Notes under the pieces: generated by a model | Databases searched by the model: none | Seen by the model: the letters and a program-made list of their open reading frames with translations, nothing else | Told to the model about the DNA's origin: nothing | Position numbers and translations under genes: made by a program | Shown: one piece after another, positions 32,254-51,538 of the stretch | How positions within the stretch are numbered: the stretch's first letter is position 1 | How the letters are laid out: each line of letters begins with the position of its first letter | NCBI RefSeq assembly: GCF_002283365.1 | Contig: NZ_MQWD01000010.1 | Location: forward strand, 1-64,000 | Direction: 5' to 3' | DNA length: 64,000 bases | From: Rubrivirga marina | GTDB lineage: Bacteria; Bacteroidota; Rhodothermia; Rhodothermales; Rubricoccaceae

Positions 32254-32258
32254 GGCCC

Positions 32259-35080: not shown

Positions 35081-35940
35081 TGGCCGACCCCAAGCCGCTC
35101 TACGCCACCGACTACTCGCCCGAACAGGTCGACCGGACCGTCCGGGCGCTCCTCCAGGTCGCCGTCGCCCTCGGCGACGACCTCCCCCACGTCGTCCTCG
35201 TCGGTGGCCTCGTCCCGCTCTTCCTCGTCGACCAGGCCGAGGCGGCCACGCGCGACGAGGCCCACGTCGGCTCGGCGGACGTCGACGTCGCCCTCCACTT
35301 CGCGCTCCTCGACGAGGACCGCTACGACGCCCTCGCCGGGCGCCTCGCCGCGAGCCGGTTCGAGCCCGACGAGAACGCCCGGGGCAACCCCACCCCCCAG
35401 CGGTGGAGGTACGGGCCGGCCCCCTCCGTCAAGGTCGACTTCCTCATCGACGAGACCGAGACCGACGACGGAACCTGGGACCGCGTCCTCCACCTGGGCG
35501 AGGGCCTCGCCGCCGTCCGCGCGCTCGGGCTGGCGCTCGCCTTCGACGACGCCGTCGAGCACGAGCTGGACGGCGACACCCTCGACGGCGCCCACGCCCG
35601 ACGCACGATCCGCGTCTGCGGCCCCGGCGCGTTCGTCGTCCTCAAGGCGCTCGCGTTCCGGAACCGGGCCGCGCGGAAGGACGCGTACGACCTCGCCTAC
35701 GTCCTCCGGAACGTCGGGGGCGGGCCCGAGGGCGTCGCCGACCACTTGGCGCCGTTCCGGGACCACCCCGCCGTGCAGCGCGCCGTCCGAGTGCTCCAGG
35801 AGGACTTCGGGTCGGAGCGGGAGACCGGTCCCCGCGCGGCGTCGGCCTTCCTCTACGCCGAACGGATCGACCCGGACTACGTCGCGGGCGTCGCGGGCTC
35901 GGTCCAGATCGTCCTCCGGCGACTCCAGGCCACCGGCTGA
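35080..35940 (+). CDS. AbiEii-like nucleotidyltransferase toxin
   Basis: 286 residues. The nucleotidyltransferase core is visible: VVLVGGLVPLFLVDQ (GG-S/L motif), HVGSADVDVALHF (D-x-D metal ligands) and VKVDFLIDE (third acidic position). The helical C-terminal half includes AFRNRAARKDAYDLAYVLRN, as in AbiEii/MenT toxins. Such toxins add nucleotides to tRNA or other acceptors and block growth upon phage infection. The gene overlaps the preceding antitoxin gene. No other operon member follows; 77 bp separate it from the next gene. Confidence 0.75.
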   Translation: MADPKPLYATDYSPEQVDRTVRALLQVAVALGDDLPHVVLVGGLVPLFLVDQAEAATRDEAHVGSADVDVALHFALLDEDRYDALAGRLAASRFEPDENARGNPTPQRWRYGPAPSVKVDFLIDETETDDGTWDRVLHLGEGLAAVRALGLALAFDDAVEHELDGDTLDGAHARRTIRVCGPGAFVVLKALAFRNRAARKDAYDLAYVLRNVGGGPEGVADHLAPFRDHPAVQRAVRVLQEDFGSERETGPRAASAFLYAERIDPDYVAGVAGSVQIVLRRLQATG

Positions 35941-36017: not shown

Positions 36018-37730
36018 ATGCCTCGGCACCGCTACAGAACCTCGGACACGATCGGGAAGATCGGTGCGGCCGCCTTCCGAAGCTGGGCGGAGGCCGTCGG
36101 GCTCGTCGTCAACGAGTCGGCCGACGACCAGGCTGGGTGGGACTTCATCGTCGAGTCCAATCCCGAGGCGGCCCACGAGCCGCCAGCGGACCCCTTCGGG
36201 CATGCCGACTCCTTCCCGGTCCGCGCCCGAGTGCAGGTCAAGGCCACCGACAAACGGGACGGGGCCATCGACATGAAGTTGAGCAACTGGGTCCGGCTTG
36301 TCGAGTCGCCCGACCCGGCGTTCGTCTTCGTCGCCGAGCTCGACGGCAAGGACATCCCCCAACGGGCGTGGCTCTACCACGTCGGCGAGGACGACTGGCG
36401 CGACATCGAGCGGCGGAAGTGGGAGAACGAGACGGGGCACGGCAAGAAGGCGAAGCGCCCGCTCCACAAACTGTCCCGGCGACTCCGGTACGGCGCACAC
36501 GATGCGCTCCCGTCCCTGGACGGTTGTGCCCTCCTCGACGCGATGGCCGACGCCGTCGGACCGTCGCCCTCCGAGTACGCATCGCGCAAAATGACCGTAG
36601 TCCGCGAGGCGGGGTACGAGCGAGGCAACGCGACGGTCCGCCTCCGGATCGGCGGTGACGCTCCCCCGGACGTCACGCTCGCGGAGGCCCAACTCGGTCT
36701 GCGGCCCCGCGTCCGTGTTCGCGACGTCCACGTCGCGCCCATGCGTTTCGGCGTCACCCACGAGGGCCGTGTCCACGTCGTCGGAGACGCCGAGCTGTTT
36801 GTGCAGACGGCCGCGCCCGGGGTGCCTGTGGAGGTCGAGTTGGAGGCTAGCGGCGACGTCGCCCGCGTCCCGGCCACGCTGCACGTGCCCCACGCCTTCA
36901 CTCACCGACTGGCGTCCGGTCAGGACCCCGAGGGGCTGAGCCTCCGAGCCCGGTCGCCCGAACTCGACCTCGTCGTCCGGTTCGGACGGGCGTCGTCGCT
37001 CAACTTGAGTTCCCCGGCATCGGATCACCCCACCCCTCTCCGCTCTCTCCTCGTCCTCTCGCGGGCGACCCGGGTAATGGGCTCGGCGGCCCGGAACGGC
37101 GTCCCGCTCGACATTCGGGTCGTGGGTCCGGACGGGGTCGCACTCAAGCTGAAGCAGGATCCAGTCCCTCCCAGTGAGGGCGGCATCAACATCGATGACT
37201 TTCCACCCGACTGGCTCCTCGACGGCGTCGAGGACGCGTGGCACGTCGCCCGTGTGTTCGAAGCGGAGAACGAGGTGGTGACCACGATCGACGAGATTGC
37301 CGAGAGCGCCCTCGGTCTCTCGCAACTCCGGTCCTTCGCCGACGGGAGCGCCGACGGGGCGTACCGTTTTGAGTGGGAACCCGGTGCCGAAGGCGAAGGA
37401 CCGCAGCGTTTGACCGAGCTGTCCGAGGCCGTCATCGTGGCCTACCACGCGGCGCTGGGGGCGACTCGCTTCAGCGTCGCGGCCCACCTCGGGGGCTCTT
37501 TGGAGTTCGAACACCCCTGTGCCTACTCGGTCCATTTCGGCTCGGTCGACCACCAGGTGCTGCGAGCGACCAAGATGGCCGCGCCCCCGCCGGATCTGGC
37601 GGCCCTCGCAAACCGGTCGTGCCAGAAGCTTGGGAAGGTCGCCCTCCTGTGCCTCCTCGTCGAAGACCAGATGCGTATGCTGCTCCCCGGTCCGAGCGGT
37701 GAGCTCCCACCACCCGCTGGCCAGGACTAG
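36018..37730 (+). CDS. DUF4365-like PD-(D/E)XK domain protein
   Basis: 570 residues. The N terminus (TSDTIGKIGAAAFRSWAEAV, then GWDFIVES and VRARVQVKATDKRDGAIDMK) has the D...Q-V-K pattern of DUF4365, a restriction-endonuclease-like fold common in defence islands. The remaining ~430 residues are beta-rich and unrecognised. It may be a single-gene defence nuclease. Its TAG stop (37728-37730) overlaps the end of the degraded integrase tail at 37727, so it lies exactly at the edge of the cassette array and is oriented towards it. Confidence 0.65.
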   Translation: MPRHRYRTSDTIGKIGAAAFRSWAEAVGLVVNESADDQAGWDFIVESNPEAAHEPPADPFGHADSFPVRARVQVKATDKRDGAIDMKLSNWVRLVESPDPAFVFVAELDGKDIPQRAWLYHVGEDDWRDIERRKWENETGHGKKAKRPLHKLSRRLRYGAHDALPSLDGCALLDAMADAVGPSPSEYASRKMTVVREAGYERGNATVRLRIGGDAPPDVTLAEAQLGLRPRVRVRDVHVAPMRFGVTHEGRVHVVGDAELFVQTAAPGVPVEVELEASGDVARVPATLHVPHAFTHRLASGQDPEGLSLRARSPELDLVVRFGRASSLNLSSPASDHPTPLRSLLVLSRATRVMGSAARNGVPLDIRVVGPDGVALKLKQDPVPPSEGGINIDDFPPDWLLDGVEDAWHVARVFEAENEVVTTIDEIAESALGLSQLRSFADGSADGAYRFEWEPGAEGEGPQRLTELSEAVIVAYHAALGATRFSVAAHLGGSLEFEHPCAYSVHFGSVDHQVLRATKMAAPPPDLAALANRSCQKLGKVALLCLLVEDQMRMLLPGPSGELPPPAGQD

Positions 37731-37826
37731 AGGGCACCTCCCTCGGAGCCATCCTCGTCGAAGAGCCATCACTCGCGGACGTACTCGGCGAGCATGGCGG
37801 CCGACTTGTGCCACGCGCTACTGGAT
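37727..37826 (-). pseudogene. Degraded integrase 3'-end tail (array copy A)
   Basis: This 100-bp stretch aligns with the last 102 bp of the integrase gene at 48499-48600 (one 2-bp deletion). Reading the minus strand it still gives HKSAAMLAEYVRE, then a stop in place of Gly, then WLFDEDGSEGGAL and TAG. It begins at ATCCAG like the other copies. It closes the array 26 bp beyond the STAND gene's stop. The frame is broken, so this is a relic. Confidence 0.8.
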
Positions 37827-37852
37827 AAAACGCACGGACCGCCCCAGCATCC

Positions 37853-40800
37853 TTAGCCGTCGCCTACGCGCTGCGCTAGTTCGAACGCGACGGGGACTTG
37901 CTGCGTGACCATCGCTCCAAGCAGGTGCCGAAACGCGGCGAACGCCGCCTCGCGCTGGCGGAGCGCCTCGCGGTCGTGCTGCCACACGTGGACGAGAAGC
38001 TGAATCGTCAGGTCCACTGACTTGCTGCGAGCCCGCGGACCGACCGTATGGTCTTTCCATAAATGGGCTCCTTCTCGCCGGGCGGCGTCGCTGAGCCAGA
38101 TTAGACCGTCGAACCGAACCGCGTCAGCTGCAGGCAGAACCAGGAAGGCCGCCAGATGGGCGACGTCCGTGTCACGCCGGAGATGGGTCTCAGCCCACGC
38201 TCTCAGGCCCGGCTCAACGGCGGCCACCACCTGGGCTCGGTCCGCCGTCCAGGTCTCCGCCGAGAGGTGCTTGAGTCCCAAGAGGTCGCGCCACAGCTCG
38301 TCTCGCCGGAACCATACGCCCGCGTCCGCCAGCGCCCAACGCGCGTGACCCTGTGCGTACTCGATCATCAGCTGCCATCGTCGGAGAACGACCTGAGACG
38401 CGCCCAGCACCGCTCGTGGCCACCACTCCATTAAGAACCACGAGACGAGCCCTGAGGCCGACGGTCCGAGGTTGAGAATCGGCTCCCAGTACTCGCGGGC
38501 CTCAGCATCGGAGTCGGCCTCTGCGGCGAGTGCCGCCGCGTGCGACGCGACGAACCGGACCCAGGGATCGTCCACACCCTCGAAGTCCTCGGTCGGGGCA
38601 TCATCTGGGAGCGTGAGCCATTCCGCGGTCTCGCGAACGGCGTCTGCCCAGACGGCCCGCCACCGCTCCCACGACTCCACCTCCGCCAACTCACCTGGCA
38701 GAGGGATACCACGGAAGGCCGAGACAGCGAGTCCAGAGTCGAACGGCATATCCGGGCGGGCGCGGTGACCCGGTCGCGCAGATCGAAGCCTCGGCTCGGT
38801 GTCCGAGTCACCTGCTGTCAACTCCGACACCGGGGGCACGGTCGCGCTCAGGCTCCCATCGACGAAACGGCGGCTCGCGTCCTCGCGCTCCGCATCGAGC
38901 CGGTCGATTTCATCCTGGATGATCGCCTCGCCTCCCTCTGGTGGGAATCTCGCGACGTTCCTGAGCTGCCCCAGCCTCCGATCCGTGCGGGCGAGTCGCA
39001 GAATCAAGTGAACAAGGCGCAGGTGGTCGTTCCCTAGGCGCGCCCTCTGTGCCTTGACGCCGTCCACCAGTGCGTCGATCTCCTCGCCGACGCCCGTCAG
39101 AGCGAGCCGTGCGACCGCTCGACGGAGTTCTTGGTCGTCTGGGTCGGAAGCCCACACCGTCGGGAGCACACGTGCGGCGAAAGACCGCGCGCTCCACATC
39201 CCAAGGCCGGGGTGATCGGAAACCGACCTGGCGGCCTCCAGCAGAGTCGCGCGCGCCCACGCCGCACGCTCAGCGTGCGACGCAGTGCTGCGTTCTCCGA
39301 ACACGGCGAGGACGGCGGCGATGCCGGCGAGTACATCGAGAGCGCTCTGCGGAGTATCTGCCCACTGACGATCGCTGAGAGCCTCGAGCCGTTCGACGCG
39401 CGACCACAACTCGTCGAGACACTCAGGCGTCGCCTCCTTCTCCCGGTCTAGAAGCTGGGAGCAGTCCATCGGCGTCGTGAGCGGAAGCATGTTCGCAACG
39501 AACTCGGCCTGAGCTTCGTCATTCCGGACTTGCTGCTCGGGCGGAGGCTGGAACACGAGGATTTGGCGCGCGGGCCCCCCGTCTTCGTCGTCTGTCGCTT
39601 CTATGGCGTCCTCCTCGGCCGGCGCCCAATTGTCCGGGTCGAACTGTGCGAGAAGGGTCGGGATGTACTCCCACCCGTGATAGACCGTGTCGACCTCGCG
39701 AGACCAACGTTCCCGCGCGTCCGCGACCGCCTCGCGAAAGCTCTCGTCGCTGTGGAGCAGGAAGAGGGCCACGTTGACCAGGGAGGCCCGACGGTGGGGG
39801 TACTCGTGCCACTCGCGGTAGGCGTCGTGCTGAGCACGAGGGAGGAGCGTGAATGGCGGCGAGATCGCCGACTTCCACATCATGTTCTGGCTCCCCATGT
39901 TCGTCCAAGAGAACAGGTGCGGGCTGAGCAGGAGCGGCCTCAGAGGCCCGAGGAACAGATGGGGCGCCCGCCGCCCGACTGACGCTAGCACGCCGACCAT
40001 GGCCGTTGAGGTGGTCTCTCGCAGCAGCCGGGCCACGAGAGGGCCGACATCGTCACCCGCCTCGATCCGGTCGTACAGGTGCTTTTCCAGCGCCATCAGC
40101 GCGCTCGCCACGACCCCCTCCGATGTAGGGCCGTCGAGGTTCCAGCCGAACACCTCGGCGTGACCGACCGTCTCGATCTCTCCATCGGACGTCGCCAATC
40201 GCAAGACGAACGGCTCGGCGCGCTTCCCGTGCCACCGTTCGAACCGGTCGGAATGGTTCTCCGCCCAGCGCTCCGTCGCGTGACGCAGCAACCGGACGAT
40301 CACCTCAATTCCGGCGTCCTCGTCGAGGGTGAGCAGCTGTCGGAACGGACCGCGGGTGTAGAACGGGGGGTGCCACTGGGGTCGGGCGACGTAGACATCG
40401 CGAAGCGGAACCTCGTCGTACCGGTCCCTTGCGGCGGGTGCGCGGATCAAGAGCGCGAGGAGGATCTCGACGGCGGCTTCGGGAGCCGCGACCACGAGCG
40501 GTGCCAGCGCTCCCTCTTCGAGGACCACGTGCTGCAAGGACCCATCTACCTCGAAGGCCGGGCCGTCAGGCCACGGCTCAGGCGTCGGACCGGGTGGGCC
40601 GAACACGGAGCCCAGAGGGACGCCCTTCTGGCGCGCAAACGCCCGGTTCTCCTCTTTCTCTTCCTCCGTCAGCGGCGGCGGCTCGAACCGTTTGGGGCTG
40701 AGTCCGGACGCCTCTCGGAGGATGGCCAGCGCGGGGTCGGTGTCCTGCGACGCCGAGAGGAGCACCGCCGTATACACCGAGCGGCTCACCAGGTCGTCGC

Positions 40801-43153
40801 TGCGGAGCCCGTAGCTGCCCCGGCCCTCCTTGTCGCGGAGCGTGGCTTCGCCCAGCGCCACGGCCGTCTCTGCGGCCTCGACCCTCATCGGCCAACCGTC
40901 GCGCGTGTGCTGAAGCCAGAGCGCGACCACACGCGCCACGACTAGGCGTGCGGGGTAGGGGATCTCGTTCCGGTGCGTGTGGAGCACCGCCAGCGGCGCG
41001 ACCCAGTACGGCGCGTACGGAATCCGAGCCGAGGCCGCGAGGTACGGTTCCATGTCGGGCGCGACCTCGGCGAGGACCGTGCGGAACGCGTCGTTCGGAA
41101 CGGTCGCTGAGTGGAGCAGTCGGTGCAGGAGCCGGTTGAGCAAGGCGCCTTCGTCCTCGATGAGGACCGGCCACAAGGCCGTCAGTGCACGCGCGGACCC
41201 GACCGTATGCGCCGAGGCTTCGAGCAGCAGGTCGCGCGCGAGGTCCGCCGCGTCGCCCAGGTCCTCGAACGCGGCGAACGCCTCCCGCCAGGACGCCAGT
41301 CCGTCGTGTTCGAGAAGGTGGAGGCCGTAGAGCCGAACCGCTCGGTACCACACGGGTGAGTCCATCCGGCTCTTCAAGAACTCCACCAACCGGCCGCTCT
41401 CCGTCTGCTCGCGCAGGATTCGGAGCCGGACCCAATCCCCGTAGAGGTCGTGCTCGAACCGGACGCGGTCGTCCCGCCGAGTCAGGAGACGGTCGTCAAC
41501 GAGTGCCTCCAGCGCGCTCCGTTCACCCGTGTCGAACTCGCCCGACTCAACGCGAACCTCCGTCACCAGGCGATCCGCCTGCTTGCGCGCGAGCGTGGCC
41601 GCGGCGGCGCCTCGGTCGAGGGACACGTCGGCGCGCTCGATCTGCTGGTCCCAGAACCACATCGCGAGATGCGACTCGCCGACCGTGTGGAGGTCGAGTC
41701 CGCTCGTCGAGTGCAGCGCGAGCAGGTCGAGCACCTTGGGGCGGAGCAGCACGGGCGCCAGGTGCTGCCGCAGACGCAGCGGCCTCAGCTCGGGGAACGC
41801 CTCCCAGACGGGCGCCAACTCGTCCACGTCTGGGCTCTCGACCGCGTACGACTCGACGCGCTCGGCCGCTAACCCGTCGCGCCGCAACTCGTCCCGGACG
41901 CGCGGCCACGCCTCCGGCGTACAGGTGAGCAGCGTCCGCCAGCCCGGCCGGACCTCTTCGCCGTGGGTCAAGCCCACCGCGGCGAGCAGCGCGCCCACGC
42001 GGGCGAAGGCCTCGGGGGCGTACAGCCGGTCCAGCTGGTCGATCACGAGGAGACCCGGAGCGACGTCGTGCTCCATCAACGTCGGGAACGATGGAGATCC
42101 TGAGACCACGTTGCCGCGCTCCAACGCGTCCCCGGACGCCCACACCACGCGGCCGGCGTCGTCCTCAAGGGCATTGAGGGCTTCGTGACGCGCGATTACG
42201 GACTTCCCGACGCCGGACGCACCTAGCAAGATCACCGCTGGCGCGTCCATGCCCGCTAGATCGGTTCGGGCACGTGACCGGGGGAGCACTACCTGGCCTC
42301 CGATCCGGTGGCGGACGCGCCTCGCCGCCTCGGCGCTCGCGTCTCGCAGAGCCTCCCATGCAGGACGGTGGTCCGGTCGGCCGCGCAGCACGAACCGGGG
42401 CGGCACCCGGGCGAGCACCCCCGCACGGTCTACGTCTCCCGAGGCGGTGCGCAGACTCCACGCGATCTCTTTGAGCGATTCCCACAGGGCGTCGGCCTCG
42501 TCGGCGTCTCCGCTCTGCAGCGTGTCTTGCAACAGTTCCTTCGCGCGCAATCGCCGCAACGAGTTCTGAGCGTTGAGGTCGAACGGGAGCCACAGCACGC
42601 GTCGCAGCATCCGGCCCGCTAGGGGAGGGCTCGAGCCTGCGGGCACGAGGTCGTCGGGGCACGCCGCGCTCGCGAGCAGTCCACGGACGGTGTCGTTGGC
42701 GCGGTGAGGTCGAGCGACATCCTCGTCCAACTCGTCCGGGCTCTGTGCGTGGGCACGTGCCAGGAGGTCCTGGACATCCGACTCCACGTGGGGCGCAGGA
42801 GCCGACACGAGAGCCAGCCAGTCCCGATCCTCGACGAACGCGTCAGACGACGTGCCGAGGAGTTGCTCCCACGCGTCCCGTACGAAGTCCGCCGGGAACG
42901 ATGCCACGCCGAACTGCGCGCTGCTCTTCACGGAGGCCGCCACGTAGACGGAGCCTGGGTACGTGAGCACGACATCGTCGAGATGCCACACGCTCGCCGG
43001 CTCTTGCACGTCCACGCGCTGTGGCACGCCGGGGACCCTCTCGATTAGAGTGCGTCCTGCGATAAGGTGTGCCAGGACGTAGGCCACCACCTCGGTCTCG
43101 AAGTCGTACCCGCCGCCGCCGGTCTGCTTCGGAGTCGCGTCGCGTCGGGCCAT
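37853..43153 (-). CDS. STAND-type NTPase with N-terminal PD-(D/E)XK-like nuclease domain (Avs-like)
   Basis: 1,766 residues. The N terminus (GGGGYDFETEVVAYVLAHLI, then VWHLDDVVLTY and VYVAASVKSSAQFG, residues ~12-80) fits a restriction-like nuclease domain fused to many defence NTPases. The NTPase follows: Walker A ILLGASGVGKSVIA (~residue 310) and Walker B GLLVIDQLDRL (~370), then a winged-helix-like segment (FEHDLYGDWVRLRIL). The C-terminal ~1,100 residues are helical repeats that would serve as the ligand-sensing region. Avs-type proteins bind phage proteins, oligomerise and activate the nuclease. It is the only full gene of its cassette and starts 22 bp after a short conserved frame. Confidence 0.8.
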   Translation of the reverse strand: MARRDATPKQTGGGGYDFETEVVAYVLAHLIAGRTLIERVPGVPQRVDVQEPASVWHLDDVVLTYPGSVYVAASVKSSAQFGVASFPADFVRDAWEQLLGTSSDAFVEDRDWLALVSAPAPHVESDVQDLLARAHAQSPDELDEDVARPHRANDTVRGLLASAACPDDLVPAGSSPPLAGRMLRRVLWLPFDLNAQNSLRRLRAKELLQDTLQSGDADEADALWESLKEIAWSLRTASGDVDRAGVLARVPPRFVLRGRPDHRPAWEALRDASAEAARRVRHRIGGQVVLPRSRARTDLAGMDAPAVILLGASGVGKSVIARHEALNALEDDAGRVVWASGDALERGNVVSGSPSFPTLMEHDVAPGLLVIDQLDRLYAPEAFARVGALLAAVGLTHGEEVRPGWRTLLTCTPEAWPRVRDELRRDGLAAERVESYAVESPDVDELAPVWEAFPELRPLRLRQHLAPVLLRPKVLDLLALHSTSGLDLHTVGESHLAMWFWDQQIERADVSLDRGAAAATLARKQADRLVTEVRVESGEFDTGERSALEALVDDRLLTRRDDRVRFEHDLYGDWVRLRILREQTESGRLVEFLKSRMDSPVWYRAVRLYGLHLLEHDGLASWREAFAAFEDLGDAADLARDLLLEASAHTVGSARALTALWPVLIEDEGALLNRLLHRLLHSATVPNDAFRTVLAEVAPDMEPYLAASARIPYAPYWVAPLAVLHTHRNEIPYPARLVVARVVALWLQHTRDGWPMRVEAAETAVALGEATLRDKEGRGSYGLRSDDLVSRSVYTAVLLSASQDTDPALAILREASGLSPKRFEPPPLTEEEKEENRAFARQKGVPLGSVFGPPGPTPEPWPDGPAFEVDGSLQHVVLEEGALAPLVVAAPEAAVEILLALLIRAPAARDRYDEVPLRDVYVARPQWHPPFYTRGPFRQLLTLDEDAGIEVIVRLLRHATERWAENHSDRFERWHGKRAEPFVLRLATSDGEIETVGHAEVFGWNLDGPTSEGVVASALMALEKHLYDRIEAGDDVGPLVARLLRETTSTAMVGVLASVGRRAPHLFLGPLRPLLLSPHLFSWTNMGSQNMMWKSAISPPFTLLPRAQHDAYREWHEYPHRRASLVNVALFLLHSDESFREAVADARERWSREVDTVYHGWEYIPTLLAQFDPDNWAPAEEDAIEATDDEDGGPARQILVFQPPPEQQVRNDEAQAEFVANMLPLTTPMDCSQLLDREKEATPECLDELWSRVERLEALSDRQWADTPQSALDVLAGIAAVLAVFGERSTASHAERAAWARATLLEAARSVSDHPGLGMWSARSFAARVLPTVWASDPDDQELRRAVARLALTGVGEEIDALVDGVKAQRARLGNDHLRLVHLILRLARTDRRLGQLRNVARFPPEGGEAIIQDEIDRLDAEREDASRRFVDGSLSATVPPVSELTAGDSDTEPRLRSARPGHRARPDMPFDSGLAVSAFRGIPLPGELAEVESWERWRAVWADAVRETAEWLTLPDDAPTEDFEGVDDPWVRFVASHAAALAAEADSDAEAREYWEPILNLGPSASGLVSWFLMEWWPRAVLGASQVVLRRWQLMIEYAQGHARWALADAGVWFRRDELWRDLLGLKHLSAETWTADRAQVVAAVEPGLRAWAETHLRRDTDVAHLAAFLVLPAADAVRFDGLIWLSDAARREGAHLWKDHTVGPRARSKSVDLTIQLLVHVWQHDREALRQREAAFAAFRHLLGAMVTQQVPVAFELAQRVGDG

Positions 43154-43175
43154 CGATTAGTGACTAGGGTACCGG

Positions 43176-43244
43176 TCAGATAGGAGCATAATCTCGCAGT
43201 TGCACGAACGCTCTCTGGACTTCCGAGCGGAGCCTGACGCTCAC
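43176..43244 (-). CDS. Short conserved leader frame of the STAND cassette (22 aa)
   Basis: Starts with a GTG that overlaps the stop of the integrase tail (GTGA) and reads VSVRLRSEVQRAFVQLRDYA plus two residues. The frame in the neighbouring cassette (45883-45978) reads LSVRLRSERRGASSLLRDFA..., and the two differ partly at synonymous positions (GCT/GCG, CCT/CCG). It ends 22 bp before the STAND gene. It may be a translated leader that couples the genes, or the remnant of a gene that followed an ancestral integrase. It could instead be a conserved DNA element. Confidence 0.4.
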   Translation of the reverse strand: MSVRLRSEVQRAFVQLRDYAPI

Positions 43245-43342
43245 AGCCCGATCCCCTCGCTGGCGTTCTCGTCGAAGAGCCGGCCCTCCCGGACGTCCTC
43301 GGCGAGCATCGCCGCGCTCTTGTACAGCGTCTGCTTCTGAAT
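43241..43342 (-). pseudogene. Integrase 3'-end tail (array copy B)
   Basis: 102 bp, exactly the length of the final 34 codons of the integrase at 48499. It translates as IQKQTLYKSAAMLAEDVREG, then RLFDENASEGIGL and stop. The catalytic Tyr position is Asp, so it could not work as recombinase sequence, yet the frame is intact to the stop. The homology ends abruptly at the ATT/ATC codon, at the same point as in the other copies. It lies 48 bp beyond the stop of the PD-(D/E)XK gene. Confidence 0.85.
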
Positions 43343-43390
43343 CACCTAGTTGCTCCACGCCGAGCGGGGGTTGATGTGACAGACGGGCGG

Positions 43391-45877
43391 CTACGTCGGT
43401 TCGTCCGGGGGCGTGGGACGCTGCTGGAGCGCATCGAGCGCAGGGTTGGGCACCCAGGGCTCTGCGTTCAGGACCACGACGGACGCCCATTCGTCGGCAC
43501 CCGCACGAGTCCCAATCCCGAGCCACCGGTCGCTCCGGGTCTCGTACTTCCGCGTCGCGACCATCCCACCCACCTGGGGTATGCCCTCTTGGTCTGGCGT
43601 CTCCGGCCGGAGCATGAGGTGTGTGAGCCCGAGGCTCGCGCCCTGGATCGGGAACGAGGCCCCGGTGTCACGGCCCTCGGTCTCAGCCACTTGGCGGTTC
43701 TCTCGAATCCGCTCGGCGATGGGCTCTCGAAGCTCGTGCGGGAGGTCGTAGATCACCGACGCGATAGCCATTCTCCCTCTTGGTGCTCGGGCCTCAATCT
43801 CGTCGCGGATCTTTCGGAGCGGTTCGGGGAGCGGCTGGGCTGGCTTCGCAGCGGGCGTCTGGCGCCCGCCATAGGTATGCATGAAGTAGGCGTCCATCGA
43901 AGTGGTGTAACCCATGAGTTGGACGCCAGCGTCGGGGTCGCCGCCGGTGGCGTGCTCGAATCCGGTCCCCTCAAGGAGGTAGTGGCCGAGCCAGTCGAGC
44001 TCGTCGTTCGCCTTCGCTGAGGGATTCCCGGCCACATCGACGCGGTGCGCGAGGAAGTGGAGAAACTCGGTTGGTGAGTCTACTAGCTCTGCGACCACTT
44101 CGAGGTCGGCGAGACTCACGCACCACGGCGTGTCGTCGGGGCCTGCGTTCTCGGCGAGGAGGCCCGCCTCAGCCAGTTCGGGGAGGTCGGTCGTGAACGC
44201 ACCGAGGTCCTCCAGCGTGATGACGACGAGCGCCGCGTCTTGGACGTCGCCTGGGGCCAGATTCACCTCCGACCCGTCCTCGCGTCGGAACCGGTCTCCG
44301 CCCTCGAAGAACCGTTTCGCCCGGACAGCCTGATAATGGCCCTCGCCGACGAGTCGGTCCCGCAGCTCTTCCCGGAGCGAGTCCGACGCGCCCCGTCTCG
44401 CGGGGGGTGAGAGGACGCCGGCCTTGACCTCGACGAAGAGGAGCGTCTCGTCGTAGCGCAGCAAACCGTCCAATTCTGTCTCGCCCACCTCGCCCGCGCG
44501 GTCCTCCGCCTCGTAGGTGAGGTTCCGCTCGACGGTGGCGCCTGGAAGGAGCCCTGACAGAAGCTCCATCGCGCGACGCTCGGCGTATGACGCACGCGAG
44601 CGTTCGTAGCGGTCCCAGGCCGCTTCCGTCGCCTCTGCAGCCTGGAGCGGGCGGAGCTCTCTCGGCGGGTCGGGGTTGAGAGCGCTCTCGATGTTCGCTC
44701 GCAGAGCCCAGAACACCGACTGGGGCACGGGGCAGAAATATGCGTCTCCAGCGTGCGCCTCGACTGAGTGCTCGCCGGGGCGGAGCCGGATCAGGGGGCG
44801 GACGTGGAGCGGCGGCGTCGCCGAGGGCTGGGTGAAGAACTGCGATGCGACGTCGCCGAACCCGAGCGCCATCCGCTCCGCGAACGCGGCGGCCCGGTCG
44901 GGAGCTACGCCCGACGTGACCGCCAGTTCGTCGGCTGTGAACACGAGCGCGTCGCCGATGAACGTGTAGGCCCACGGCATGAGCCGGTACAGCGCGCGTT
45001 CGCGGCGTTCGTCCGGTGGGAGCGCCGCCCCCTCGCGGTAGAAGGTCTCGTCATGTGGAGGGGTCACCGTCCCGTCTTCCACGTACGCATCGACCCCAGC
45101 TAACAGACCGTCCACAGCCTCCCGGAGCCGCTGGAGGTGCTGGTTCAGCTTCTGCTCTGTCACTGCTTCCACGGCCGCGCACAGAGCGAGCGCGTCGGTC
45201 CCCGAGAACCCCAGCACGTCCAGGAGCACATCGTCGATGGGCGTGAGCACGCCGCGCAGCATTCGCTCGAGATGGACCGGGTAGGCAGCGTACCGGGTTG
45301 CCGTGCCCGTGATGAGGGCTTTGAACCGTAGCCACGCGAACCTGGACTGGGGTTCGTCGGCCTCCAGGTCGATGCTCTTTGCCCCATGCAGTCCAACGAC
45401 CGAGCGGAACAGGTCCTCCACTCGCGCCTGGATTCTCGCCATCTCGGACGGGAGGTGGGGCACGAGCCCGCCCCCCTCACCCCGGTCGAACGGCTGGGTC
45501 AGCGCGAGCGTTGCCACGTACTCGGTGAATGCGTCGTTGCCGTGGTGAAGGTATTCGGCGTAGGTCTCACCGTCGGTGATCGCATTGGCGAGCCAGAGCG
45601 AGGCGATCACGTTGAGCGGGTTCCGCTGGGCGAGCACGTGCTGGATCGCCGCTACCTCCGCCTCGATCTCGCCCTCCACCCGTGGGATCGCCTCGACCAG
45701 CGGACGGAGCGCGTCGCGCCGCTCCTCCAACGTCATGTCCAGGTTGTGCCGAACGATCCGATCTCCTTCGTTGACGAGTACGAAGCCGGGTCCGACGAGG
45801 ACATCTTCGCCGTGGGCGGGCTCACCAGGCTCACGTTCAGCCAGCTGACCCTGTTCGCTAGCTTCGTCGTCAGACAT
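43391..45877 (-). CDS. Large PD-(D/E)XK nuclease-like defence protein
   Basis: 828 residues from the ATG at 45877 (MSDDEASEQGQLAEREPG); longer starts run through the leader frame and integrase tail and are rejected. A nuclease core lies at about residues 464-485: ETELDGLLRYDETLLFVEVK, the D-x(n)-E-V-K pattern of PD-(D/E)XK enzymes, preceded by YAERRAMELLSGLLPG. The N-terminal ~400 residues are helical and the C-terminal ~300 residues have no recognised motif. It is the sole gene of its cassette, so it should act alone or with host factors, probably against phage. The exact family is unknown to me. Confidence 0.7.
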   Translation of the reverse strand: MSDDEASEQGQLAEREPGEPAHGEDVLVGPGFVLVNEGDRIVRHNLDMTLEERRDALRPLVEAIPRVEGEIEAEVAAIQHVLAQRNPLNVIASLWLANAITDGETYAEYLHHGNDAFTEYVATLALTQPFDRGEGGGLVPHLPSEMARIQARVEDLFRSVVGLHGAKSIDLEADEPQSRFAWLRFKALITGTATRYAAYPVHLERMLRGVLTPIDDVLLDVLGFSGTDALALCAAVEAVTEQKLNQHLQRLREAVDGLLAGVDAYVEDGTVTPPHDETFYREGAALPPDERRERALYRLMPWAYTFIGDALVFTADELAVTSGVAPDRAAAFAERMALGFGDVASQFFTQPSATPPLHVRPLIRLRPGEHSVEAHAGDAYFCPVPQSVFWALRANIESALNPDPPRELRPLQAAEATEAAWDRYERSRASYAERRAMELLSGLLPGATVERNLTYEAEDRAGEVGETELDGLLRYDETLLFVEVKAGVLSPPARRGASDSLREELRDRLVGEGHYQAVRAKRFFEGGDRFRREDGSEVNLAPGDVQDAALVVITLEDLGAFTTDLPELAEAGLLAENAGPDDTPWCVSLADLEVVAELVDSPTEFLHFLAHRVDVAGNPSAKANDELDWLGHYLLEGTGFEHATGGDPDAGVQLMGYTTSMDAYFMHTYGGRQTPAAKPAQPLPEPLRKIRDEIEARAPRGRMAIASVIYDLPHELREPIAERIRENRQVAETEGRDTGASFPIQGASLGLTHLMLRPETPDQEGIPQVGGMVATRKYETRSDRWLGIGTRAGADEWASVVVLNAEPWVPNPALDALQQRPTPPDEPT

Positions 45878-45882
45878 GGCGT

Positions 45883-45978
45883 TCAGTGTGGGTGAAGTGA
45901 GGGTAGCGGACCGACCGGCGCGAAATCTCGCAGGAGCGATGACGCTCCCCGCCTCTCCGAGCGGAGCCTGACGCTCAG
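45883..45978 (-). CDS. Short conserved leader frame of the nuclease cassette (31 aa)
   Basis: Begins at CTG overlapping the integrase-tail stop and reads LSVRLRSERRGASSLLRDFA and eleven further residues, ending 5 bp before the nuclease ATG. The first 21 codons match the leader of the STAND cassette (SVRLRSE...LRD-Y/F-AP). The DNA also has GAGCG and CGCTC flanking GAGCCTGA in both copies. The lack of a standard start codon argues for caution; it may be a recombination or regulatory element instead. Confidence 0.35.
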   Translation of the reverse strand: MSVRLRSERRGASSLLRDFAPVGPLPSLHPH

Positions 45979-46076
45979 AGCCCGATGCCCTCGGAGGCTT
46001 TGTCGTCGAAAGGGCGTCCCTCGCGGACGTACTCGGTGAGCATGGCTGCGCGCTTGTGCCGGGTCTGCTTCTGGAT
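45975..46076 (-). pseudogene. Integrase 3'-end tail (array copy C)
   Basis: 102 bp matching the integrase end at about 85% by hand count. It reads IQKQTRHKRAAMLTEYVREG, then RPFDDKASEGIGL and stop. Many differences are synonymous or conservative, so it derives from a related but different integrase allele rather than a recent copy of the resident one. Similarity continues for about six more bases (GGCCCG on the plus strand) than in copies A and B. Confidence 0.85.
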
Positions 46077-46215
46077 GGCCCGTCAGCCTTAGTGTCGTCA
46101 TAACCATGCTCTTCTCTCGCCCCAACTGATTGCGTCCTGCCTCCCAATCGGCCCCGCCTGCCAGACGGGCGACGGGTGCATCCCTATCGGCGACTTCCCC
46201 GAGGCCCCCTATAAG

Positions 46216-47502
46216 TCAGGGCGGTGCATCCGACAGCGGGGATCCCCCCTCGACGGACTGTCCGTCGTAGGTCCCGTGCTCAAAGTACTCGCTCAGCCAG
46301 TTTGCATTCCCCCTCGGCCTCGCGAACCCTTCGATCCCCCACAGGTGGTCCAGGTGGCGCTGGACCAGCCCCGGGATGAGTTGCGCTCCGTAGAACATCG
46401 TCGCTCCTTTCCGGTGGAGAATCTGCTCATCCTCGTCGTCACGATTGATCCACGTCGGTTCTCGGAGCTGGCCCGTGTGAAGGAGCCCGTTACGCATCTC
46501 AGCCACGTGGTTCGCTCGTTTTTTGGCGTCCGAGCCGTCCGGGAGGTTCGAGAGCCCGTAGTGAACCACGTACCGACGGACGAGCGGGCCGAGACCGGGT
46601 GCGCCCCAGTCCTCCACCTTCTGTCGGAAGCGGGATTTCCGGGCGCTTGACAGGTCCGTGCGTGCGTCGACCACCGCTCGGAGCTCGTCTCGCAGGTCCT
46701 CGGCAACGGGCTCGTCCGGCTCCGGGGGCGCCTGGGCACCGATGTCACGGACCGCGTTCTCGAGGGCGACGGAACCCATTGCGGCTCTGACTTCGGCCTC
46801 GACCGAGTCGACCGCCTGGAGGTACAGGAGGAACGCGGTGCGCCTCTCCGGCGGCACGAGGTTCGGACGGTGCTCCCAGGCCACCCAAGCGGCCCTGTGC
46901 AACTCAAACTCCTCAACGACGGGTGCGCTGACGCGGGGCAAGACGTACCGTCCCGCGTCGGACGGTAGCATCACGCGGCGTCCAGTGAGGTAGCTCAAAA
47001 TCTGGAGGAGGTCCCAGATCGCTCCCATCGGCCTCTCGTCGGGTAGGTGCGGCACACCCAGTAGCGCCTCACCTTCAGAGTCGGTCTCGGCAGTGGCCGT
47101 GACCAGCGGCTGCCTCATCACCGTGCTGTTGAGAGATAGGTAGAGAGGCAGGCGGGGCTCCTCGAACCGAATCGTGAAGGGGCCGACGTGCCACGGCTGC
47201 CCTGTCGTAGACGGGTGGGCTTGCAGGTTGCCGAGTTCGTAGCGGGGCACTGGGATGACAGCTGAGTCCCTGCCGGGACGCGTTTTCGGCGCATGTGGGT
47301 CCCGACTTCCTTTTCCTCTCGTGTTGTAGAAGAGCAGTCGCTCGCCGGGAGGAGACGCGAGCGCGTCCGCGGCCGCAACGCCTTCGAGCGGGTCGTACCG
47401 CCGGCTCCGGCGGGCGAAGGCGTGGCGCAGATCGGACTGGGTTGGAAACGGAGTGTCGGATGCAGTACCAACTACCGGAGGCCACAGCCACTCATCCATC
47501 AC
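46216..47502 (-). CDS. Putative HEPN-like protein (phage defence candidate)
   Basis: 428 residues from MMDEWLWPPVV; its start overlaps the end of the Lit-like gene by 11 bp. The C-terminal third contains HVAEMRNGLLHTGQL, an R-N-x3-H pattern typical of HEPN ribonuclease domains, inside a helical region. The N-terminal ~180 residues are beta-rich (WHVGPFTIRFEEPRLPLYLS), as in ApeA-type proteins where a sensor domain precedes HEPN. If this is correct, it would be an abortive-infection RNase. The assignment rests on one motif. Confidence 0.5.
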   Translation of the reverse strand: MMDEWLWPPVVGTASDTPFPTQSDLRHAFARRSRRYDPLEGVAAADALASPPGERLLFYNTRGKGSRDPHAPKTRPGRDSAVIPVPRYELGNLQAHPSTTGQPWHVGPFTIRFEEPRLPLYLSLNSTVMRQPLVTATAETDSEGEALLGVPHLPDERPMGAIWDLLQILSYLTGRRVMLPSDAGRYVLPRVSAPVVEEFELHRAAWVAWEHRPNLVPPERRTAFLLYLQAVDSVEAEVRAAMGSVALENAVRDIGAQAPPEPDEPVAEDLRDELRAVVDARTDLSSARKSRFRQKVEDWGAPGLGPLVRRYVVHYGLSNLPDGSDAKKRANHVAEMRNGLLHTGQLREPTWINRDDEDEQILHRKGATMFYGAQLIPGLVQRHLDHLWGIEGFARPRGNANWLSEYFEHGTYDGQSVEGGSPLSDAPP

Positions 47503-48502
47503 CCCCGATGCCCTCCTTCAACTCGTCCACCTCACGGACGAGCTGGCCGACCCACGCCTGAGCCGTCTCCGACTCCACGATCTCCGGCGGCCGCTCGGAC
47601 AGGGACAGGAACAGGGTGAGAGCGCACCCCGCCATCGTCCAGAGGTGGTCCTCTGGACCGACGGCCTCCGGGTCGAGGAACCCGAGCGCGTGGAGGAGCC
47701 GGTCGTCGAGGTCGGGGTGCCTCGACTGGCTCAGGCGCGACCCGCCGTGCCGCTCGCGGTCGTTCTTGCTCTCGACGGCGAGGAAGAGGAGCGCGCAGTG
47801 CGCGACGACGACCCCCGCCCTACGGGTGCGCGCCTCCCTACCGTCGTCGCCGTCGAGCAGGGCCTCGCGGGCGAACACGTCGGCCTCGGCCTCGACCGCC
47901 TTCGCCTCCTCCAACGACCGATCGCCAGCCTCCCACAGGTGATCGAGAGTCACGTGAGCGTACTCGTGGAGCAGGACGTAGACAGCGGCCGCCACATACA
48001 GGCCGTTTGCCTTCGCCACGTAGTCTATTCCGTCTCCAGGCACGGGCCGTCCGGGCCGTGGCCACTCCTGTCTCCAGGCCGGAGTGGTTTCGCGCGCGTC
48101 GAACGCCCAACCGAAGGCGGCCTCCGCCGCTCGTACGAGTCGGTTCCGGACGGCGGGGTTGGGATGCTCCGGGACCCCACGCTGCGCCCGCCGGTGGACC
48201 TCCTGGTCGAGGACGACCATCGCGAAGGCGATTGCCCAGAGATACTGGAGGAAGGGTTCGTGGAGTTCGATCCGCGCCGGCACCCCATCCTCATAACGGA
48301 CCCGCGGCGTCTCCAACGGGCGGGGCTCGACGTCGAATTGGATGGCCGGCGAGAGCACCCCGCCCTCGACATCCGTCTGGTACTGGCAGAGGAGGAACGG
48401 CCGGGCGCGTTCGAAGCCGTGCAGGACGTTCCCGTTGAGCTCCGAGATGGGGAGGAGAGAGGCCACACCTTCGCCGTCTGTCCCAGGGTTGAGGGTGTTC
48501 AT
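47492..48502 (-). CDS. Lit/U49-like zinc metallopeptidase
   Basis: 336 residues. The motif VYVLLHEYAHVTLDHLWE (HExxH, ~residue 177) followed 25 residues later by EAEADVFA gives a metallopeptidase site; HEYAH recalls the phage-exclusion protease Lit (family U49), which cleaves elongation factor Tu upon phage infection. The ATG overlaps the integrase TGA (ATGA), so it is translated from the integrase message. The next gene overlaps by 11 bp. The Lit relationship is inferred from the motif and context. Confidence 0.6.
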   Translation of the reverse strand: MNTLNPGTDGEGVASLLPISELNGNVLHGFERARPFLLCQYQTDVEGGVLSPAIQFDVEPRPLETPRVRYEDGVPARIELHEPFLQYLWAIAFAMVVLDQEVHRRAQRGVPEHPNPAVRNRLVRAAEAAFGWAFDARETTPAWRQEWPRPGRPVPGDGIDYVAKANGLYVAAAVYVLLHEYAHVTLDHLWEAGDRSLEEAKAVEAEADVFAREALLDGDDGREARTRRAGVVVAHCALLFLAVESKNDRERHGGSRLSQSRHPDLDDRLLHALGFLDPEAVGPEDHLWTMAGCALTLFLSLSERPPEIVESETAQAWVGQLVREVDELKEGIGGDG

Positions 48503-49587
48503 AGCCCGATCCCCTCGCTGGCGTTGTCGTCAAAGAGCCGACCCTCGCGGACGTACTCGGCGAGCATGGCGGCCGACTTGTGCCGGGTCTGCTTCTGGAT
48601 GGCCCGGTCGGGCTTCCCCGCGCGGGCGGCCGTCGTCGCGAACCCCGCCCTCAGCGAGTGCCCGGCGTACAGGGCCGGGTCGAGTCCCGCGGACTCCGCG
48701 CGCTCCTTGACGACGTTCGCCACGGTCCGCCCCGTGACAGCCTTACGCCCCAGCCGGCCCCACCGGTCAACGCCTCGGAACACGGGCCCCGAGAGGGGGG
48801 AGGGCCGCCCCTGGTCGGCGAGCGCCCCGCTCGCGGCGGCCACGTACGACCGGACCGCCCGGACGGGGCACGTCTCGGCGTGGTCGCCGTAAGCGACACC
48901 CACGACTTGGCCCGCCCCCTCCTGGTCGCTCTTCGACTTGGGGATCAGGAGCCTCAAGCCCTCCGGCGTGTACGAAACGTCCTCCAGGCGGACGGCGGCG
49001 AGCTCGCTCCGCCGGAGCGCGGCGGCGAACCCGAGGAGGAGCATCGCCTTGTCCCGCCTCGCCCGGAGCATCACGCCCGGCGCCGTGTCGTCGGGGAACG
49101 CCGTCGCCAGCCGCACGGCCTCGTCGCAGACGGCCGCCATCTGGACGACGTCGGCGGCCAGGGCCGGGGCCACCTTCCGACGGGCGACCCCGAGCTGGCG
49201 GACGACGCCCGCCCACACCGAGTGGAGCGGTTCTCTCGACCGCGACGCCGGGGTCTCGAGCCCAGCCAGCTTGTGAGCTTGGCTGATCGCGGCGAGCCGG
49301 CGCTCGAGCGTGGCCACCTTCAGCGGGGCCGTCGGCCGCCCGCGGTCGTCGTCGGGCCCGGCCTCGGCGCGGCTCGCTATATATAAGGCGACGGTCTCTG
49401 GCGTCGCCGGCATGGCCAAGACCGAGCGCTCATCACACCAGCCCGCGAAGTCGGCCCAGTCCGAGCGGTAGGCCCGGAGCGTGGCGTCGGACCGGGAGGC
49501 CTCCGCGAACCGCCGGGCGGCCTCCGCGTCGGCCTGGAGCGGGGAGGGGACATGGCTCCGGCGCGGGGCCGGGAGAGACTCGCTCAT
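48499..49587 (-). CDS. Tyrosine recombinase/integrase of the cassette array
   Basis: 362 residues. The N-terminal SAM-like domain (DATLRAYRSDWADFAGWCDE) is followed by the catalytic domain: Arg in FAAALRRSELAAV (~190), Lys in IPKSKSD, HSLRAGFATT (H-x-x-R, ~310), RHKS (~335) and the nucleophile in LAEYVREG (~343). The start overlaps the stop of the preceding gene (ATGA) and its stop overlaps the next start (ATGA). Its last 102 bp recur three times downstream between defence genes, so the gene's own 3' end appears to be the attachment site used to insert cassettes. The gene is intact and probably active. Confidence 0.92.
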   Translation of the reverse strand: MSESLPAPRRSHVPSPLQADAEAARRFAEASRSDATLRAYRSDWADFAGWCDERSVLAMPATPETVALYIASRAEAGPDDDRGRPTAPLKVATLERRLAAISQAHKLAGLETPASRSREPLHSVWAGVVRQLGVARRKVAPALAADVVQMAAVCDEAVRLATAFPDDTAPGVMLRARRDKAMLLLGFAAALRRSELAAVRLEDVSYTPEGLRLLIPKSKSDQEGAGQVVGVAYGDHAETCPVRAVRSYVAAASGALADQGRPSPLSGPVFRGVDRWGRLGRKAVTGRTVANVVKERAESAGLDPALYAGHSLRAGFATTAARAGKPDRAIQKQTRHKSAAMLAEYVREGRLFDDNASEGIGL

Positions 49588-50969
49588 GTCGGAGACGACG
49601 CGCCGGTGAGGAGGGACGGACGGGGTTTCCGAGGGAACCGCTGGACGCCCAGATCAAGGTCCTCGCGCTCTGCCCACGCGTCGAAGTCGACCTGGACGCG
49701 CGCCTCCTCGCCGTCAATCCAAATCGCCGACTCGAACATGAGGTCGATGAGTCCGGCGGTCTCGTCGTCGTACTGAGCGAGGAGCGCCCCCGGGGTCTCG
49801 AGTGTGACCCGTGAGGGGGCTCCGTCCGGTCCCCTCGGCGTCCGTGTGACGTACGGTTCGAACAGGTCCCCGTAGACCGTCTGGGCCAGGAGGTTGTAGC
49901 GGAAGAGCGGGATCGCGGCGTTGAGGACGGCCTCGTCCGTTTCGGCTTCGGCCAGCGCCCGGTTCAACTCCGGATCGTCGACCTCCAGAACGAGCGGAGT
50001 AGGGTTCTCGCTCGACCGGACAAACGCGCTCGGGGGCGTCATCCCACGCACGCGGAGGTTCTCGTCGAGGATCTCACGCAGTCGACGCATCTTCTCACCG
50101 AACGGCATGTCCGGGGCGGCGCGGATCGCCGGGATCCCCGCGTCGATTCGTTCTCGCATCTCCCTCCGCTGGTCCTCATCGAACGCGTAGTTCATGAGCG
50201 CTGCGACGCCATCGAAGCCGCTCATCAGCGTCTCGATGCAGTCGAAGCCGAACACGTTCTCCGCGAGGGAGATCGATCGGACCGTCTCGATCAGGCCGGC
50301 CGTGTGCTGGAGCACCTCGTCGTGCGTCCACCGGACCACTTCCACCTTCCGGTCCGAACGGCGGACGTTCCGGAAGATGACGGTATCCTCGTGGACCTCG
50401 TAGCCGTGTGAGCCGGCGTGAGAGACGGCGTTGCGCACCACCGGGTCGTAGTGTTGGAAAAGGTCCCAGCCCTCGTTGTCCCGTCGGATCCTGCTCCGGG
50501 CGTACTCCACCTTCCCCAACTCCGTCGACCCCAGGTTCGCCACCTCGATCCCGTCGAAGGTCCCCTCGATGAACTGGTAGCTCGCGGACACCAGAGTCGC
50601 GTAGGGGTCGAACAGGTCACCGACGACATCCCGGTAGACCCGGACGAGCTCGTTGCTCCGCGCGGCAACGTCGTCGTCGAGGAATGCCCCTACAAAGGAG
50701 CTATAGACGCGGGCCGCATGAGTCCGTGCGCGGTTCTTGACCGCCACCCACGGCAGGAAGACCCGCTGCAGGTAACCGGTCTCGTCGCGCTGGCGCGCCT
50801 CGTGGAGAAGTCCGAGCAGGAAGTGGATGTTGTCAGACCGCTCAGCGAGGTCGCCAAGCGGCATGAGCAGAGCACGCTGGATATCAGCAGCGACCTCCGG
50901 GTCGTCCTGAGACGAGCGGAGGTAGAGGAGCCCGTCAAGCTCGAGGAGAGAGTGTGGCGCCGAAGGCAT
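49584..50969 (-). CDS. Hypothetical protein coupled to the integrase
   Basis: 461 residues. Mostly helical, no recognised motif; it contains YDPVVRNAVSHAGSHGYEVH (an R-N-x3-H pattern, so a HEPN relationship is possible) and a helical C-terminal half. Its stop overlaps the integrase ATG, so the two are co-translated and it heads the operon. TCGATTTG on the minus strand at 50990-50983, 13 bp before the ATG, could be a -7 promoter element. It may be an integrase partner, or the youngest defence cargo. Confidence 0.55.
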   Translation of the reverse strand: MPSAPHSLLELDGLLYLRSSQDDPEVAADIQRALLMPLGDLAERSDNIHFLLGLLHEARQRDETGYLQRVFLPWVAVKNRARTHAARVYSSFVGAFLDDDVAARSNELVRVYRDVVGDLFDPYATLVSASYQFIEGTFDGIEVANLGSTELGKVEYARSRIRRDNEGWDLFQHYDPVVRNAVSHAGSHGYEVHEDTVIFRNVRRSDRKVEVVRWTHDEVLQHTAGLIETVRSISLAENVFGFDCIETLMSGFDGVAALMNYAFDEDQRREMRERIDAGIPAIRAAPDMPFGEKMRRLREILDENLRVRGMTPPSAFVRSSENPTPLVLEVDDPELNRALAEAETDEAVLNAAIPLFRYNLLAQTVYGDLFEPYVTRTPRGPDGAPSRVTLETPGALLAQYDDETAGLIDLMFESAIWIDGEEARVQVDFDAWAEREDLDLGVQRFPRKPRPSLLTGASSPT

Positions 50970-51538
50970 TAGCTGTTATTGCAAATCGACAAGCCCCATA
51001 TAGAATCCCATCGGGGAGCCGGAAGGTACGCCGTGTGGCGGCGTCGATTTCCGATAACGTCCCCTTATCGGAAGTCAGACACGACCGGCCTCGGCACGTC
51101 CGAAAAGCCGGAGCGCGCGAGGTTGATGGACGCCGATTCCTGAACGGGATCCCGAACGGCAAACGCTGCCATCAGGGCCGATCCGGTCTCGGCTTCTGCC
51201 GCGATGCGAAACCCGCCGTTTGCCGAACTGGGGAGGACCTTCCGGTGCAACGTCGAGCCCGATCGGCTGCCACTCCTGAGCAACCCCGGCGGGCGCTGGC
51301 TGCCGAGACCGAGCGCCGGTCGACGACCGGGGTGTGCATGAGGCGCCGTCGGACCGCGGCGTATCCTGTCGCGCACCGTGCCCGTCCCTCCCGTAGCTCA
51401 CCCCGTCCTTTCTTATGAGCGCCGTCGCGGTGCTCGGATGACCGCTTGGTCAGACCGCAGGGCCGGCCGCGTCGGGGAGGGTCGGGGCCTCGCCGGTCGG
51501 TGTCCAGCCCGCCGGCCTCTTTCCTGGCGGTCGGGCTG
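50970..51538. other. Intergenic region at the right edge of the array
   Basis: About 570 bp with no supported gene. The first 100 bp are relatively AT-rich and should hold the promoter of the leftward operon. An exact inverted repeat lies at 51049-51073 (separate entry). Open frames in the rest lack motifs. This is the boundary between the defence array and the stress-gene cargo. Confidence 0.4.
51049..51073. promoter_or_regulatory. Perfect 9-bp inverted repeat with 7-bp spacer
   Basis: TTCCGATAA-CGTCCCC-TTATCGGAA. Two readings fit. The arm and spacer lengths are those of a tyrosine-recombinase core site. The inner GATAA-N7-TTATC is also identical in its arms to the site just upstream of the OxyR-like gene (53969-53985), which points to a LysR-type regulator box. 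It lies 80 bp upstream of the leftward operon. Confidence 0.5.

Follow-up and report, generated by a model that had tools for sequence, protein, structure and literature searches.

Copies of an integrase gene's 3' end delimit defence-like cassettes in Rubrivirga marina and suggest an attachment site within the recombinase coding sequence

How does the end of a recombinase gene come to be repeated between putative defence genes? One locus of Rubrivirga marina raises this question, within a 64,000-nucleotide window that covers contig C10:1-64000 of a 4.98-Mb genome. Here, the last 34 codons of a tyrosine recombinase gene, int, recur three times downstream on the same strand as int itself, and the three copies (tails t1, t2 and t3) mark off three cassettes of one or two defence-like genes each. 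On balance, and judging from sequence comparisons, we consider it probable that small defence or toxin-antitoxin cassettes have been inserted repeatedly and site-specifically at an attachment site inside the recombinase 3' end.

Copies of the int 3' end and the cassettes between them

The gene and its tails lie as follows.

48499..49587, minus strand: tyrosine recombinase int, a complete open reading frame (ORF) of 362 amino acids; PF00589, 41.6 bits
48499-48600, minus strand: last 102 nt of int, the current tail and proposed attachment site; found by alignment
45975..46076, minus strand: tail t1, 102 bp; frame open, His and Tyr kept
43241..43342, minus strand: tail t2, 102 bp; frame open, catalytic His and Tyr replaced
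37727..37826, minus strand: tail t3, 100 bp; frameshifted, contains a stop codon

An initial annotation of this DNA had placed the three tails at these positions, on one strand and with a common ATC or ATT start, and alignment, shuffling and tblastn all bear it out. Aligned locally to the int tail, t1, t2 and t3 score 135, 129 and 99; the best of 300 shuffles per region reached 26-27, and the best 300-bp segment of the window overlapping neither int nor a tail reached 31. The corresponding tblastn E-values are 2.3e-13, 1.2e-11 and 5.8e-6. All three tails (3/3) begin at the same ATC/ATT codon, codon 330 of the 362 in the window int, which puts the junction within the int coding sequence, and homology ends abruptly there, with t1 possibly matching about 5 bases further upstream.

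The tails differ from int and from each other. Because their identities are about 80-85% (int-t1 and int-t2, 84.8% each over 99 nt; t1-t2, 79.8%) and the majority of int-tail differences fall at third positions (9/15 for t1 and 10/15 for t2), the comparison indicates, as the annotation had held, that they are diverged integrase alleles rather than recent copies. Decay follows distance from int (int > t1 > t2 > t3): t2 reads TLYK and EDV where int reads TRHK and EYV, and so has lost the His and Tyr that we assign as catalytic by their place in the tyrosine recombinase family. A search of the genome itself (E 1e-3) returned tail-only matches on the array contig only, together with three longer relatives of int at 30-37% identity. 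Int scores below the curated cut-offs for XerD (41.2 vs 329.6 bits) and XerC (35.5 vs 335.15 bits).

The material between the tails comprises the following features.

47492..48502, minus strand: cassette 1 gene 1, Lit-like peptidase; PADLOC Lit 7.4e-21, Pfam Peptidase_U49 5.4e-12
46216..47502, minus strand: cassette 1 gene 2, HEPN-like protein; motif only
45878..45974, minus strand: cassette 2 leader, homologous to the cassette 3 leader; shuffle test
43391..45877, minus strand: cassette 2, PD-(D/E)XK-like protein, 828 amino acids; motif only
43154..43240, minus strand: cassette 3 leader; shuffle test
37853..43153, minus strand: cassette 3, STAND-like protein, 1766 amino acids; weak AAA_16 and Avs4 matches, found also behind a tail in a second genome (G049)

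Cassettes 1, 2 and 3 measure 2.4, 2.6 and 5.4 kb, all four of their genes are oriented as int is, and the gap from the end of the last gene to the next tail is 139, 48 and 26 bp, respectively. The cargo names of the initial annotation fared unequally: Lit is upheld by PADLOC and Pfam, and STAND by weak matches, whereas the HEPN-like and PD-(D/E)XK-like proteins found no family match in Pfam, PADLOC or NCBIfam and owe their labels to motifs read by eye (RNGLLH and ELD...VEVK, respectively). Past their stop codons, t1 and t2 remain homologous for about 80 bp (0/2000 shuffles as good), and this common leader precedes the PD-(D/E)XK-like and STAND-like genes. Sequence after the int stop showed no homology to it (775/2000 shuffles as good); cassette 1 has no leader, and the Lit ATG overlaps the int stop.

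Several further genes adjoin the array. The 31119-33587 stretch holds an ORF that we presume to be very-short-patch-repair-like, an HNH nuclease and a C5 cytosine methylase, and 33992-35940 holds a two-gene pair, the second member with a weak AbiEii match; relatives of this pair also occur 2.3 kb behind the int of genome G048, past an Mrr-nSTAND3 gene. A 570-amino-acid gene of no known family occupies 36018-37730 on the opposite strand, its end overlapping that of t3 by 4 bp.

Tail-delimited cassettes in other genomes

The initial annotation had pointed to related genomes as the place to look for the tail unit. The int family is present in 31/114 genomes of the order (E 1e-10). A 36-amino-acid tail profile matched 24/114 genomes at E 1e-3, mostly through full int genes, and a 60-amino-acid profile matched 24/395 at E 1e-6; each locus was also searched with its own int, over 148 loci that include some contigs fetched twice and leave aside int genes read as shorter than 100 amino acids. 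From the profiles, the own-int searches and the re-reading of one contig, tail-only copies emerged in four genomes of the order: that of the window, G049, G034 and G067.

The closest parallel comes from G049, which is of the same genus and is a fragmented metagenome-assembled genome (MAG; 81% complete, 750 contigs) in which strains may be mixed. Its contig C622 carries the window's tail, leader and STAND gene at 89.5% identity over 3.2 kb, with a protein 92% identical to the window's over residues 1-1007. C622 begins inside the tail, and its first 55 bases are the last 55 of contig C341, whose int is 81.5% identical to the window int over 996 nt, and also of C383, which ends in a lone tail; the last 55 bases of a third contig, C590 (int 80.3%), match 10 bases further in. 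Because the STAND cassette stands third in the window array and behind a different integrase or tail in G049, its upstream neighbour changes at the tail, and the cassette is, on these alignments, more alike than the integrases that surround it. Near a STAND homologue in genome G061, no tail was found at E below 0.02 within 12 kb.

G067 carries two arrays of its own. On contig C1, int is followed by an 852-amino-acid TPR protein, a tail, a 1760-amino-acid NACHT/TPR-like protein and a second tail; the first tail is intact and the second has two stop codons. On C5, RES/Xre, PIN and further small genes stand between int and the first tail, and an RHH/PIN pair stands between that tail and the next; there may also be a remnant, eleven codons long, of another tail, and one called ORF is in the opposite orientation. 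In a blastn comparison with a 503-nt query, the matches of the four tails begin at query positions 318, 315, 314 and 330; the tail starting at 330 is decayed, and by eye its frame extends to the same place as the other three. In G034, a tail on contig C7 has upstream of it an HTH_3 gene and another gene whose RelE match falls below threshold. Outside the order, one decayed tail, in a Bacillota MAG (L179), starts at about the window's codon, and at a second Bacillota locus, L184, a full int is followed immediately by a partial one. L060 (G071:C118) likewise has full next to partial int genes, and these two loci perhaps represent another stage of the same process. Contigs end within 350 bp downstream of int in 10/80 loci vs 4/80 upstream, a suggestive difference of which no use is made here.

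The int genes themselves also set the tail apart. We compared third-position agreement at identical residues between tail and body, leaving out G049:C383. In the window subfamily (ten int genes, three of them incomplete), agreement is 82.4% in the tail vs 65.5% in the body, a level that 0/297 other 33-codon windows reach; the seven complete genes give 78.8 vs 65.4% (0/297). Eight G067-type genes give 64.0 vs 52.2% over codons 278-338 (0/217). Thus, in either of the subfamilies with arrays, no other stretch of int is as synonymously conserved as the tail. Seven intermediate int genes with no tail in the fetched loci give 54.8 vs 46.5%, with 9/263 windows reaching the tail, and one genome of this set, G034, has a tail on another contig. 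The first 60 bp of the tail are identical between the int of G050 and the window int, whose bodies are 73-84% identical. Such conservation would be expected from constraint on a DNA site and also from exchange of tails.

Carriers were sought among viruses and plasmids as well. Int relatives are encoded at 34 viral loci, where own-int searches gave nothing beyond paralogues, a fragment from the N-terminus and a weak match on the opposite strand, and an exact 24-base tail pattern found 0 matches in the search for viral carriers. Among 72,556 plasmid records, 419 match int, all at below 60% identity, which does not support int as a plasmid-only gene.

A proposed insertion mechanism and its alternatives

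Because the tails share their start, decay in order, accompany a STAND cassette whose neighbour differs in G049 and coincide with the peak of synonymous conservation, the view of the initial annotation that repeated insertion at the int 3' end displaced older tails is well supported. In the mechanism that we propose, Int would have its attachment site in the 3' coding end of its own gene, and small cassettes (here 2.4 to 5.4 kb, with one or two defence-like genes) would each bring a corresponding int tail. An exchange where the tail begins would place a cassette directly behind int; the incoming tail would become the new end of the gene and provide the active-site tyrosine, and the displaced tail would move downstream to mark the far end of the cassette. 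Repeated rounds would build an array with the newest cassette beside int and tails decaying with age. We further infer that insertion and excision are the work of the resident Int, that cassettes also occur in free form, and that cassette 1 is expressed by read-through from the int operon.

A second candidate site lies upstream of int, in a region with two features.

51049..51073, no strand assigned: palindrome TTCCGATAA-N7-TTATCGGAA at the left boundary of the conserved int leader; candidate core site for Int or operator
49584..50969, minus strand: 461-amino-acid protein of no known family between leader and int; ATGA overlap, 4 nt into the int start

The motif CGATA-N5..12-TATCG occurs in the 400 bp upstream of 35/127 distinct int genes vs 2/127 in the 400 bp downstream; its carriers include int genes of Bacillota and other phyla, and its spacer varies freely. 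Among seven related loci, 19/21 pairs have, among the alignments listed, one that starts within 8 bp of the outer edge of the palindrome, and an exact search of eight genomes found it at 8 places in 7 genomes, 7 of them beside int, with 0 for the reversed control. A solitary palindrome with no int nearby lies at 5195-5219 of L237 (G034:C22). In G033, a 128-amino-acid gene sits between the palindrome leader and int. Like the window int behind its 461-amino-acid gene, the int of plasmid pSR61 abuts the gene before it. Two roles are conceivable for the palindrome, as a core site for Int or as an operator. As a site of cassette insertion it is not supported, there being one copy per locus, and, if it is viewed as a possible attI beside the integrase gene, the cassette boundaries of the window contain no second copy.

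Several observations weigh against insertion by Int at the tail. The palindrome looks more like the enzyme's own core site than the tail start does, and by eye the tail start has no clear inverted arms; our confidence in the tail as the site is moderate mainly because, if the palindrome were the sole core site, the tails would need another explanation. Tails also start at several codons of the window int: 330 in the window, about 302 in G067, about 299 for the lone tail of G049:C383, and 308-318 (by eye) for that of G034:C7. As far as these alignments indicate, the start is common within one genome and different between subfamilies. Most int loci have an int and no displaced tail, and three of them, from two families of the order (L040, L041 and L042), share int and an RHH/PIN pair in a block whose sharp far edge, about 870 bp after int, bears no tail. 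The tail of the G048 int rises little in identity to the window int. Finally, breakpoints of int mosaics cluster only partly toward the tail, and before its start. In the window subfamily, 23/105 triplets (which are not independent) have one, with 9 falling at nt 870-989 (the tail starts at 988) and the other 14 outside that stretch; in the G067 subfamily 6/168 do, 5 of these near nt 700 (tail start about 830).

The strongest of the alternatives, though one that we consider unlikely, was already raised in the initial annotation. Many islands use tRNA 3' ends as insertion hotspots; int might similarly be a passive target, its conserved 3' end used by independent islands that other recombinases moved, in trans or before being lost. 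The junctions would have the same anatomy, tails could start at more than one codon, and Int would be left its other candidate site upstream. Because int relatives often adjoin defence genes (PDC-S73 in G048, an OLD/AAA_21-like gene in G046:C14, restriction-modification genes in G047, Abi-alpha and a type I restriction system on pSR61), a hotspot for islands without capture by Int is possible, and this too counts against our proposal. Yet such arrays were seen in several genomes behind this one int family (the tails of other integrase families lay outside the search), and the cassettes are compact. The hotspot view is weakened, too, by the content of the cassettes: own-int searches found no further copy of this integrase in the readable ones, and no recombinase stands among the called genes of the window's three, serine and unrelated recombinases not having been searched for systematically.

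It is improbable, in our estimate, that no site-specific step was involved. RecA could have exchanged DNA carrying int fragments by homology, or tandem int elements could have been deleted down to their ends, the constant start being inherited from a common truncated fragment. The mosaic breakpoints, which fall as much as about 140 nt ahead of the tail start and not at it, agree with such a history, as do the adjacent full and partial genes of L060 and L184. However, different cargo stands behind tails with the same start in both the window and G067, deletion would need repeated hits, and in two subfamilies the rise in synonymous conservation sets in approximately at the tail start.

A true integron with attC sites, despite the single recombinase and the compact, same-orientation cassettes with toxin-antitoxin and defence genes, can be set aside as very improbable: Int scores 17.8 bits against the integron integrase model TIGR02249 (cut-off 265), the int tail, t1 and t2 (t3 was not folded) have ordinary single-strand folds on both strands (z-scores -0.94 to +1.14), and positions 30000-53000 contain no Rfam match at the gathering threshold (the coverage of attC in Rfam was not checked). 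The initial annotation's term "integron-like" thus holds only as an analogy, and the resident Int is a candidate for the recombining enzyme.

Comparison with known capture systems

Repeated insertion at the int tail, if it occurs, could tentatively be taken further, to a gene-capture platform separate from and independent of integrons, in which the int 3' coding end is the capture site, each cassette re-supplies the catalytic tyrosine and leaves a decaying scar, and array order records the history of defence acquisition. Such a platform would span several Rhodothermota families and perhaps other phyla, given the one decayed tail of the Bacillota MAG. Phage-defence genes would then be stacked in integron-like fashion on an unrelated site, and enzyme function would be tied to capture, the recombinase working only if a cassette restores its catalytic end. 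Because tails are searchable, they could lead to new defence systems carried as cargo, and short substrates would allow the mechanism to be tested.

Searches of the open-access PubMed Central literature yielded no description of arrays delimited by integrase tails, subscription papers and preprints being outside its scope. Passages of a Salinibacter ruber genome paper place XerD-type recombinases among recombined genes and on plasmids, and these passages do not present the architecture seen here. In the myxophage Mx8, the integrase gene contains the phage attachment site attP (PMC6070905, PMC4701971). The junction thus lies inside the int coding sequence, as in the window; however, there a whole phage integrates once and int gains a short foreign C-terminus, whereas here the C-terminus is restored and cassettes without int accumulate. 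Archaeal suicidal integrases of the SSV type also have their recombination target within the integrase gene (PMC8371274). Upon integration that gene is split, whereas the window int stays complete.

In accretion arrays of genomic islands, integrative and conjugative elements and cis-mobilizable elements, the modules excise and transfer, and direct repeats of the 3' end of a gene stand on either side of them. The window resembles them in its direct-repeat-flanked modules and in having one recombinase for several of these; it differs in that the repeated gene is the recombinase itself, and in its cassettes of 2.4-5.4 kb, among whose called genes no transfer gene was seen. Integrons, in turn, combine one recombinase with small, same-orientation cassettes bearing toxin-antitoxin and defence cargo. 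The array is alike in all of these respects and, presumably, in having the newest cassette beside the recombinase; it is unlike integrons in that its recombinase is not IntI by score, no attC-like fold was found at its tails, the site falls within the int gene, which is directed toward the cassettes, and cassettes 2 and 3 have their own common leader.

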